Part shown: positions 2,883-34,314 of the stretch, piece after piece
How the letters are laid out: every line of letters starts with the position of its first letter
How positions within the stretch are numbered: position 1 is the first letter of the stretch
NCBI GenBank assembly: GCA_003223255.1
Contig: QHYJ01000093.1
Span: forward strand, 1 to 41,435
DNA length: 41,435 nt
From: Acidobacteriota bacterium
Lineage (GTDB): Bacteria > Acidobacteriota > Terriglobia > Acidiferrales > UBA7541
Direction of reading: 5' to 3'
Program-made: the position numbers and the translations under genes
The notes under the pieces: generated by a model
Seen by the model: the letters and a program-made list of their open reading frames with translations, nothing else
Database searches by the model: none
Told to the model about the DNA's origin: nothing

Positions 2883-3425
2883 ATGTTCCTGGACGTGAAG
2901 GAATTAGCTGTCCGCAAACTCCGCATCCATAAGGCCTATGCGCCGGGCAGCATCGACTTTCATTCGGCCGAAATCAAACAGATTGAGCCACTGGAAGTGA
3001 CTGCCACTGCGGAGCTGCTGGAAGGGCAGATTCGCGTCGAGGGTAACCTCGACACGAAGGTCGAGTTGGTCTGCGCGCGCTGCCTTGAACCGGTTACCGA
3101 GGAAGTCAGCCGCTCGTTTGACCTGTTTTATGCTCCGCTTCCTCACGATGCCCGCCTCACCAAGCATCGGGAAGACCGGCTGAAGGACGACGATACGGAT
3201 ATCGGCTTTTACGAAGGAGCTGGCCTTTTCTTGGCGGACGTGTTGAAAGAGCAGGTGCTACTGGCGCTTCCCATCAAGGCCATTTGCCAGAGCGATTGCC
3301 GGGGGTTGTGCCCGAATTGCGGCGCCAATCTGAACCACGAAGAGTGCCGTTGCGAGACCCACGCCACGGATCCCCGATTGGTCTCTCTCGCGCGTCTCAA
3401 GCAGGACTGGCTGAAAAAACAATAG
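2883..3425 (+). CDS. DUF177 / YceD-family protein
   Basis: DUF177 (YceD) proteins are linked to 23S rRNA or large-subunit accumulation and to rpmF expression. This one has about 180 residues, the usual size. Landmarks are VELVCARCLEPV in the middle and DVLKEQVLLALPIKAIC followed by CRGLCPNCGANLNHEEC, a C-terminal cysteine-rich stretch. I chose the ATG at 2883 because GGAGG sits about 10 nt before it and the family usually begins with a short leader into the first strand (MFLDVKEL). An in-frame ATG at 2853 would add ten residues. The gene is followed 59 nt later by rpmF, the standard DUF177-rpmF pairing that leads into the fatty-acid genes. Confidence 0.88.
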   Translation: MFLDVKELAVRKLRIHKAYAPGSIDFHSAEIKQIEPLEVTATAELLEGQIRVEGNLDTKVELVCARCLEPVTEEVSRSFDLFYAPLPHDARLTKHREDRLKDDDTDIGFYEGAGLFLADVLKEQVLLALPIKAICQSDCRGLCPNCGANLNHEECRCETHATDPRLVSLARLKQDWLKKQ

Positions 3426-3432
3426 TTTTTCC

Positions 3433-3453
3433 AGGGCGAAAGCCCTATATAAT
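3433..3453 (+). promoter_or_regulatory. hairpin with GAAA loop and TATAAT box ahead of rpmF
   Basis: AGGGC-GAAA-GCCCT (3433-3446) forms a 5-bp stem with a stable tetraloop. It is immediately followed by a perfect TATAAT (3448-3453), and a further inverted pair CCGCC/GGCGG lies at about 3455-3467. This could be a -10 element for an internal rpmF promoter or a regulatory hairpin in the DUF177-rpmF transcript. No good -35 box was seen, so the promoter reading is tentative. Confidence 0.35.
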
Positions 3454-3484
3454 CCGCCCAACGGCGGGAACGAGGTGTAGTGTT

Positions 3485-3661
3485 ATGCCTAACCCAAAAC
3501 GGAGGCATTCCAAAAGACGGACCAGCACGCGGCGGGCCCATGATTTTCTCGCCAAGCCCGGACTGGGCAAATGTCCGAATTGCCAGGAAATGAAGCTGCC
3601 GCACCAGGCGTGTCCGCATTGCGGCTACTATAAGGGCAAAGCGGTACAAGCGTCGGCATAG
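3485..3661 (+). CDS. rpmF: 50S ribosomal protein L32
   Basis: This is ribosomal protein L32, 58 residues. It begins with the invariant MPNPKRRHSKRRTSTRRAHD and carries a zinc-ribbon CPNC...CPHCGYY, so it is the cysteine-containing (C+) form. A GAGGTG ribosome-binding site lies 7 nt before the ATG. It sits between DUF177 and plsX, the classical arrangement that couples ribosome and membrane lipid synthesis. Confidence 0.97.
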   Translation: MPNPKRRHSKRRTSTRRAHDFLAKPGLGKCPNCQEMKLPHQACPHCGYYKGKAVQASA

Positions 3662-12689: not shown

Positions 12690-13711
12690 TTATTTGGCAG
12701 CTTCACCAACTCCGCGTGACCAAAGTTTCTTCACGAAGTGAACCATGCGGTCCACCATAGAATCATTAGCCTGCGCGGCGGGTTTCGGAGGGCTAGCAAC
12801 AGAAGGACGTGACCGCGCCGGTGCGGGAACAGAAACGGGCGGAGAGGAAGCCGGCAAATCTCCCTCGACGCGTCCCTGGAAAATCAGCGTCGGCCGCACG
12901 CGCACGCGCCGCGTCACCACGATCTTGCTCATATCCACTTCCGGCTGAACTTCGGCGTTTGCGTTGTAAATTAGTGGCGGGACGAAAACCTCGTAGATGG
13001 GGCCGTCTTTTGTCGTTGGTTTATCCAAGGGCAGAGGCGAGACAATCTCACCGGACCCCAGCGCTCTGGCGTTGGCTCCTTCCGTAGGCGCAGCCGGAGG
13101 AATAATCTCCAATCGCGGAGTCGGGACGTATTTTGTAAGTTGTGGATCGCAGGTGCACCGATCACCCCCGCCGCGCAGGCCATCCAATTTTCCATCAACG
13201 AGCAGAACATCCGCCGACTGCGGTACGACAATGTTTTGGCTGGTGAACTGCTGCTCCAGTCGCACGGCGCCACGATATGCGCGCACGCACATGGCTCCGG
13301 TGGCGTCAAAGCCGACCAGGGCGTCCTGGGGACCGTCGCCAATCGCGATGGGCTGAATCTGAAGAAGCGGAGTATAAATCGTTAGGGCCGGTCCGTGCTC
13401 GATGGAAACGTGGATCGTGCCGGTATCGAGCGCCAGCGTGAGCAAATTGCCGGATTTGAGAACGGAAAAATGCGCTGGCCCGCAAATACTGATTGTGCCT
13501 CCTTGTGTGAGATCGAGGCGCGCGGTCCCGGACTTGACCAGCACGTCGCTGCCGCTGCGCAGCACCGTTCGCGGAAAGCCGTGAACGACTTCAACGCGCA
13601 TGGGGCCGGTGACGGCGACGGCCGTGCCATCGAGGCAGCTAACACCATCGCGCTGACCAGCAGCCAAATCACGCGGTGTGTGAGGGGCGACAGGATGGAA
13701 GGAAGCGACAC
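12690..13711 (-). CDS. secreted FecR-like protein, N-terminal signal peptide out of frame
   Basis: The body of the protein (LDGTAVAVTGPMRVEVVHG, DVLVKSGTARLDLTQGG, ICGPAHFSVLKSG, LTLALDTGTIHVSI, YTPLLQIQPIAIGDGPQD, GAMCVRAYRGAVRLEQQ) is a beta-rich FecR-like repeat domain. A proline-rich C-terminal half follows, ending in a short basic helix. The body frame has no good start; its longest form begins at a TTG (13733) with a peptide that is clearly out of frame. The neighbouring frame carries GTG 13711 with GGGAG about 10 nt upstream and a good signal anchor (THRVIWLLVSAMVLAAS). The two join if one base is missing near 13630-13650. So the gene is either frameshifted in nature or the sequence has an error. 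Function is unknown; FecR-type domains are usually periplasmic. Confidence 0.65.
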
Positions 13712-16315: not shown

Positions 16316-16924
16316 TCAGCGCGCGGCTTTGCTTCGATGGAGTCTGGCGGCTAGAGCCTCGACCTGCTTGCGAGTCTGCTCGAGCGTGCCGGAGCAGTCG
16401 ATTTTCTCTGTAGCGTAACGCAGCTTTTCCTCCACCGGCATTTGCGCGGCGATGCGGCGACGAGCTTCGTCTTCACTGAGTCCGCGCGCGGCCAGGCGTT
16501 CGACTTGTTGCTCCGGGCGGCACCAGGTGACTACGAGCCCGTCGAGCTGTCTGTGCATCCCGGCCTCGACAAGCAGAGCCGCTTCAACGACTGCTGCGTC
16601 ACGCGTGCCTTCGCGCTGCCATTCCTCGAACCGGCGGGAGACAGCTTGGGCGACCCGCGGGTGGACGATGGCATTGAGACGATCGAGCCTCGCGCGATCC
16701 GCGAAGACAAGCGCCCCAAGCTTGGCGCGGTCCACACGTCCTTGGCCGTCGGCAATCGCAATGCCGAATTCGCGGAGAACTTCTTCGTAGGCGGGCTGGC
16801 CCGGTTCGATGAGCTTGTGAGCAAGCGAATCCGCATCAAGTACGGAAAAACCCAGTTCGCGGAGCATGGTCGCGACAGCGCTCTTGCCGCTGGCGATTCC
16901 GCCGGTCAATCCGAGTCGCAGCAT
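16316..16924 (-). CDS. coaE: dephospho-CoA kinase
   Basis: CoaE performs the last step of coenzyme A synthesis, phosphorylating the ribose of dephospho-CoA with ATP. The protein has 202 residues. The P-loop is GLTGGIASGKS at the start, followed by LGFSVLDADSLAHKL and GRVDRAKLGALVFAD, and then HPRV and ALLVEAGMHRQLD, all typical. The frame is open upstream and merges with the 5' half of folD, which might be misread as a FolD-CoaE fusion. The ATG at 16924 is the natural start, and it begins within about 10 nt of the folD stop, suggesting translational coupling. Confidence 0.93.
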   Translation of the reverse strand: MLRLGLTGGIASGKSAVATMLRELGFSVLDADSLAHKLIEPGQPAYEEVLREFGIAIADGQGRVDRAKLGALVFADRARLDRLNAIVHPRVAQAVSRRFEEWQREGTRDAAVVEAALLVEAGMHRQLDGLVVTWCRPEQQVERLAARGLSEDEARRRIAAQMPVEEKLRYATEKIDCSGTLEQTRKQVEALAARLHRSKAAR

Positions 16925-16932
16925 TTTGTTGA

Positions 16933-17827
16933 TCACCGGGCCGTGGCCGTGGATTGTGTGGCGGAAAGTTCCGGGGAAGCGCGCCGGAGGCGTGCGGCCT
17001 TGACCGTATTGCTCATGAGCATGGTGATGGTCATGGGGCCGACGCCGCCGGGAACGGGGGTGATCGCCCCGGCAACGTTGACGGCATCGGGATGAACGTC
17101 GCCGACGAGGACCGAGCCTTTGGCGCGGAATTTTTCGAGGCGCGCGGGGAAATTCCGGAGAAGCCGCTCGGCTCCGGCGGAATCCTTGATGGTGTTGGTG
17201 CCCACATCGATGACCGTAGCACCGGGTTTCAGCCAATCGGCTTGCACGAACCCGGCTTTGCCCATGGCGGCAACGACGATGTCGGCGCGGCGGACGATTT
17301 CGGGAAGGTCGCGCGTTTTGGAGTGGCAGATGGTGACGGTAGAGTTGGCGTGCATGAGCAAAAGCGCCATCGGCGCGGCGAAGAATCTCCATGCAACCCG
17401 CGGGAGTGCAGGCGACAAGCCCGGGGCGCCCACTGACGAGCCGGCCAAGATTGACAGGATGGAAGCCATCCACGTCTTTCGCGGGATGCACGGATTCCAG
17501 GATGCGCTTGGTGTCCACCTGCGGAGGAAGAGGAAGCTGGACAAGGATGCCGTCGACGTTGTTGTCGTGATTCAAGTCATCCACAACAGCGAGAAGCTCC
17601 CGCGTGGCCACGGTGGCCGGTGGTGTGAGGAGGCCGCTCGCCAGCCCAAGCTGTTCGCAGGCGGCAATTTTGCTTTTCACGTAGAGCTGCGATGCGGGAT
17701 TTTCGCCGACGAGAACGGCAGCAAGGCCGGGCTGGATGCCGGCGGACGTCAGCACGCGAACTTCGTCCTTGAGTTCGGCGAAGATCTGGTCCCGGATTTT
17801 CTGGCCATCGAGAATGCGTGCAGTCAT
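16933..17827 (-). pseudogene. folD: folD (methylene-THF dehydrogenase/cyclohydrolase) with internal deletion and frameshift
   Basis: FolD interconverts methylene-, methenyl- and formyl-tetrahydrofolate. The 5' part in one frame is typical: TARILDGQKIRDQIFAELK, the YVKSK catalytic lysine motif, [23 protein letters not shown] and [12 protein letters not shown]. The 3' part is in another frame: [54 protein letters not shown] and [16 protein letters not shown]. At 17371-17380 the two meet. The roughly 20 residues expected between them, including the VVVGRSxIVGKP NADP-binding loop, are absent, and the frame changes by one base. That is a loss of about 61 nt between short gcgcc repeats. As it stands it cannot make active FolD. 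Assembly error or true deletion are both open. Confidence 0.85.
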
Positions 17828-25637: not shown

Positions 25638-26234
25638 ATGCGGCTCATTGTCGGACTTGGGAATCCCGATCCGGAGTACCAGTGGACGCCGCACAACCTA
25701 GGATTCATGGTCGTGGACGAGTTGGCGAATCGCAACGGGATTCGCGTCGAGCGGCCGGAAGGCAAGGCGCTGGTAGGCCGCGGGAAAATTGTCGGCGAAG
25801 AGGTCGTGCTGGCGAAGCCGCAGACGTACATGAATCTGAGCGGCATCTCGGTAGGAGAGCTGCTCGCGAAGTATGAAGTGGATTTGGACGGCCTGCTGGT
25901 GATGTGGGATGAAGTGCAACTGCCGCTGGGCACGATTCGCATTCATCCGGACGGCAGCGCGGGCAGCCACAACGGCGCGAGGTCGGTCATCAACGCCGTT
26001 GGCACGCAAAAGTTTGCGAGGCTGCGGCTCGGCTGCGGCCCCGACTATCCGCTGAGCAGCCGAAGAGAGCACGTGCTGCGGCCGATGAAGAAGGCGGAAT
26101 TGGAAGCCGCGGCGGAGATGGTCGGCGAAGCCGGTGATGCCGTGGAAATGATCCTGACGCAGGGCTTGGACAAGGCGATGACGAAGTACAACCGGCGTAT
26201 GCCTGACGAGCCGGGAGAGTCGGAGCAAAACTAG
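25638..26234 (+). CDS. pth: peptidyl-tRNA hydrolase
   Basis: Pth releases peptides from prematurely dropped peptidyl-tRNA. The protein has 198 residues. Landmarks are LIVGLGNPDPEYQWTPHNLGFMVVDELA (with the catalytic His in PHN), KPQTYMNLSG, MWDEVQLPLGTIRI and GSAGSHNGARSVINAVGT. The core GLGNP-H-D-N set is complete: H in PHNLG, N in TYMNLSG and D in MWDEV. It follows rplY and precedes rpsF, as is common. Confidence 0.96.
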   Translation: MRLIVGLGNPDPEYQWTPHNLGFMVVDELANRNGIRVERPEGKALVGRGKIVGEEVVLAKPQTYMNLSGISVGELLAKYEVDLDGLLVMWDEVQLPLGTIRIHPDGSAGSHNGARSVINAVGTQKFARLRLGCGPDYPLSSRREHVLRPMKKAELEAAAEMVGEAGDAVEMILTQGLDKAMTKYNRRMPDEPGESEQN

Positions 26235-34255: not shown

Positions 34256-34314
34256 GCGTCTTCTTCTGCGAAGTCGTGCCGCGTCTTACACTGTAGCCTT
34301 GAGCTGTTAACACG

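Follow-up and report, generated by a model that had tools for sequence, protein, structure and literature searches.

Is the folD gene of this acidobacterium really broken, or was the break introduced during assembly? The window, i.e. the whole stretch of 41,435 nt analysed here, is the complete contig C400 of a draft genome (G000 in the following) that comprises 6,661,743 bases in 428 contigs and is 97.3% complete with 2.1% contamination. Its minus strand carries folD (16933-17827) encoding FolD, the bifunctional methylene-THF dehydrogenase/cyclohydrolase. A preliminary description based on the sequence had proposed that this gene is broken, has lost its NADP loop and is shifted in frame. Matches to PF00763 and PF02882 and an alignment with 19 congeners bear this out. 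The broken folD is, however, very probably an unmarked assembly gap in an ordinary gene and not a real biological feature.

Compared with the folD genes of 19 genomes of the genus, exactly 62 nt are missing in the window. This holds for 19/19 nucleotide alignments, each with one gap, which is located after minus-strand base 453, between 17375 and 17374. When the loss is measured by the positions of the flanks, it amounts to 62 nt in 8/8 relatives; a coarser deletion scan with the same eight relatives yields 62 nt in six, 61 nt in G018 and 17 nt in G019. The loss itself had thus been described correctly, whereas its size had been put at 61 nt or so. Since 62 nt correspond to 20 codons plus 2 nt, the frame is shifted. 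In the relatives, the missing stretch encodes about 21 residues of the type NEIPIEGANAVVLGRSDIVGK, which constitute the NADP-loop segment. The N-terminal domain PF00763 is complete (17468-17812, minus strand, 4.5e-37, positions 1-115 of 115). The NADP domain PF02882 is split over two frames, with model positions 1-31 at 17369-17461 and 50-157 at 16990-17376; in another search, the second piece starts at model position 52 (52-157). As assembled, FolD is devoid of a complete NADP-binding domain, as model positions 32-49 are absent and the GRSxxVGKP loop is gone, and of one uninterrupted reading frame, the shift lying at 17375|17374. Within a named collection, the N-terminal half is most similar (89% identity) to a metagenome genome that bears the label Acidobacteria; records of the own genome were possibly excluded from this comparison. 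The features of the locus are summarized in Table 1 together with the marked gaps discussed below.

Table 1. Features of the folD locus in the window, and runs of N elsewhere in the same assembly with the gap length found in relatives
Feature	Position	Strand	Description
folD 5' part	17375..17827	-	151 codons, ATG to last codon before the missing segment; PF00763 and alignment with 19 congeners
folD junction	17374..17375	-	62 nt of the relatives absent; blunt, 0-1 nt microhomology
folD 3' part	16933..17374	-	shifted frame to stop codon; PF02882 50-157; ORF 16933-17544
coaE (dephospho-CoA kinase), presumed	16316..16936	-	ORF; start overlaps folD stop as GTGA
apparent 503-aa frame	16316..17827	-	joins folD 5' part, out-of-frame folD and coaE
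N=198			true gap 246 nt, 6/6 relatives
N=125			true gap 128 nt, 2 relatives
N=93			true gap 70-88 nt, 4 relatives
N=2			true gap 55 nt, 1 relative
N=168			true gap 153 nt, 2 relatives
N=2			true gap 53 nt in 3/4 relatives, 44 nt in the fourth
N=192			true gap 209 nt, 2 relatives
N=45			true gap 83 nt, 6/6 relatives
N=12			true gap 62 nt, two copies in one genome

The ends of the missing segment contain information on its origin. Short gcgcc repeats at the join had been noticed previously, and recombination between them had been considered as a cause. These repeats do not flank the loss: the position of the deletion can be shifted by no more than 1 nt in any of the 19 relatives, and microhomology with the window's own flanks is 0 or 1 nt. 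A deletion between direct repeats is therefore not supported and was rejected. Likewise, an old pseudogene was rejected on account of the dN/dS ratios, which in neither half exceed those of pairs of intact genes. Against seven relatives, dN/dS ranges from 0.055 to 0.094 for the 5' half and from 0.053 to 0.214 for the first 120 codons of the 3' half; among pairs of these seven relatives, the values are 0.036-0.095 and 0.058-0.285, respectively. Judged by this lack of relaxed constraint, the gene would be either intact or very recently lost.

A very recent loss would imply a real 62-nt deletion that inactivated the sole folD of the genome, with formyl-THF supplied from formate by Fhs and methenyl-THF provided by FTCD during histidine breakdown. 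In agreement with such a scenario, folD is the sole copy and both fhs and FTCD are present in the genome. The search for another folD or an fhs gene that the preliminary description had proposed was performed on the contigs with profile- and alignment-based methods. It revealed fhs and the cyclodeaminase family FTCD, and no second intact folD in the own genome. Apart from the two halves, the folD matches there comprise nothing but an N-terminal remnant of 43 residues, located on contig C358. This decayed 5' folD-like fragment (L116, 1208-1336) has counterparts in L117 (3972-4097) and L118 (1542-1655), where it resides in about 1.25 kb of shared sequence common to three genomes of the genus. 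Furthermore, Listeria monocytogenes is reported to survive the deletion of folD when fhs is retained, albeit with growth defects (PMC10653936), which lends the idea some plausibility.

The distribution in the genus argues against a real deletion. An alignment-based search of 36 genomes found a full-length folD without internal stop in 33/35 other genomes, and the 62-nt loss occurs in none of these 33. The two exceptions are G044, whose folD is cut by a contig edge, and G015, a 63% complete genome in which no folD was found. Including the own genome, fhs is patchy (17/36) and FTCD near universal (35/36). Because both are common in the genus while 33/35 others, fhs carriers among them, keep a full-length folD, they do not mark the own genome as special and are no sign of compensation. 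The absence of relaxed constraint points in the same direction, as do the further blunt losses described below for this assembly. Hence, a real recent deletion in the sole folD is unlikely, and it is slightly less likely still that an uncultured acidobacterium recently dispensed with FolD for real and now depends on Fhs and FTCD, in which case a natural switch in formyl-folate supply would have been caught at its start, before either half decayed.

Alternatively, the sample might be a strain mixture, with the deletion present in part of the cells and its path chosen by the assembler. A draft in 428 contigs would be compatible with this. No second contig with the intact segment was found: the folD loop pattern yields 0 matches in the own genome even with up to 2 mismatches allowed. 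We regard a mixture as very improbable.

The frame shift generates an open frame of 503 aa that extends through the next gene, which we take to be coaE. A functional FolD-CoaE fusion could be envisaged on this basis. However, the fused stretch is out-of-frame folD and the NADP loop is lost. Moreover, the shifted frame is free of stop codons in 6 of the 20 genomes examined, the window included, so chance suffices to explain the open frame, and the fusion was rejected: it is a by-product of the shift, and the probability of a functional protein is next to nil. On the same strand, the window contains at 18624-20516 genes whose translations resemble what are presumably an arsenate reductase, an arsenite-methyltransferase-like protein and an ArsR-type regulator. 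A frame shift suspected at 2907-3624 was dismissed, as the reading frames of the window and five relatives indicate a non-coding frame.

In contrast to these alternatives, an assembly slip, which had also been considered earlier, is supported by three properties of the assembly: runs of N, wrong lengths of these runs and further blunt losses. The window itself does not contain any N. In 312,782 other bases of the own genome, nine N-runs were found. The true gap was defined as the distance between the flanks of an N-run in six relatives and read by hand from match coordinates; six of the nine N-runs were re-measured with a script, which gave the same values. For several N-runs, including those on C260, C30 and C420, one or both flanks have more than one matching site in the same relative; the true length given is that of the best or only consistent pairs from few relatives. 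Six of the nine N-runs are too short by 17-53 nt, one is too short by 3 nt and two are too long (Table 1). Thus, scaffold joins with a mis-estimated length do exist in this assembly. Among the stretches of relatives checked for N-runs, just one (L117 of G047) had any.

Blunt losses without N are found in the same genome as well. Where at least two other genomes allowed a comparison (119 kb), three more were obtained, all on contig C68 and in conserved genes, whose families were named from the proteins of relatives. An aldehyde dehydrogenase gene has lost 28 nt (3 relatives agree), an amine oxidase gene 75 nt (2 relatives) and an S9 peptidase gene 82 nt (2 relatives), in each case with agreement of all comparable relatives. 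These losses are located at 34258, 44119 and 52962 and display 0-2 nt microhomology. On contig C30, a 46-nt loss is possible; it is doubtful, since it relies on 2 relatives at 68% identity. Altogether, the deletion scan of G000 yielded eight clusters: the three C68 losses, folD, the C30 site, one at an N-run and two others at which at least one relative aligns without a gap. When only the coding parts of the C400 and C68 regions were compared, eight G000 sites backed by at least 2 relatives emerged. Five of them comprise at least 25 nt, including an uncertain one at window position 13636 and the 28-nt loss, which appears there as 25 nt. Between two adjoining genes, the window is about 51-64 nt shorter than its relatives at 13632-13694, which may reflect natural length variation or another gap. 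One further C68 gene has three single-base losses at 26015, 26356 and 26403; a 1-nt fault suspected near C68 71,400 was checked and is absent.

How often do such discrepancies occur by themselves? At control points placed every 300 nt on four contigs, with known lesions left out and points counted if at least 2 of three relatives gave a value, the spacing of the flanks deviates from expectation by at most 6 nt in 252/275 cases. Five points differ by 7-24 nt and 18 by at least 25 nt, where the relatives mostly disagree with each other. The deletion scan applied to six relatives resulted in 13 clusters, mostly of uneven sizes or in-frame. Nevertheless, apparent blunt losses that break the frame of long ORFs were found in relatives, too: 116 nt in G043:C475 near 7267 and 37 nt in G019:C215 near 1716 (positions in the stretches compared, not in whole contigs). 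Two references also indicate a 59-nt loss in G043, which is doubtful and may disrupt a shorter ORF at its end. Because G043 and G019 carry frame-breaking losses, these are not confined to the own assembly. Clear cases amount to 3 in 118.8 kb of the own genome vs. 2 in 425.1 kb of six relatives, which are small numbers; with the doubtful ones, including C30, the ratio is 4 vs. 3. The excess in the own assembly is suggestive but small. In the coding-only comparison, four relatives display three sites: two comprise 1 nt each, and for the third, in G018, the two references disagree (-243 and 207).

A scaffold join accounts for these data best. The draft would have been scaffolded by joining contigs across gaps whose lengths had to be estimated and mostly came out too small. 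At 17375|17374, two contig ends separated by about 62 nt were most likely joined without any N, as a gap of about 60 nt might be assigned a zero or negative length and be closed, and an intact folD would consequently appear deleted and frame-shifted. The blunt join without a repeat, constrained halves on both sides and an otherwise retained folD in the genus are in accordance with this explanation. Against it, the largest under-estimate at marked gaps is 53 nt, whereas the unmarked losses comprise 62, 75 and 82 nt, and relatives have frame-breaking losses as well. We infer that contigs were joined at 17375|17374 during scaffolding and that the folD gene of the organism is whole. The case serves as a warning that drafts containing N-runs can also hide gaps without N. 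Such gaps resemble clean deletions that break the frame of important genes, and they can be mistaken for gene loss. Where reads are lacking, comparing the length of N-runs with relatives is a cheap assembly test.

With respect to known systems, the window gene resembles ordinary folD in that both halves are conserved and the overlap with the next gene is the same, as also present in relative L032. It differs in that its copy has no NADP-loop segment and is shifted in frame in the assembly. The break itself is reminiscent of the faults that Chen et al. (2020; PMC7111523) describe for metagenome-assembled genomes, i.e. scaffold gaps and local assembly errors that affect protein-coding genes: in both cases, short sequence is missing or wrong at joins and protein-coding genes in public drafts are broken. 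In contrast to those cases, the join in the window bears no N and would thus pass for a deletion.
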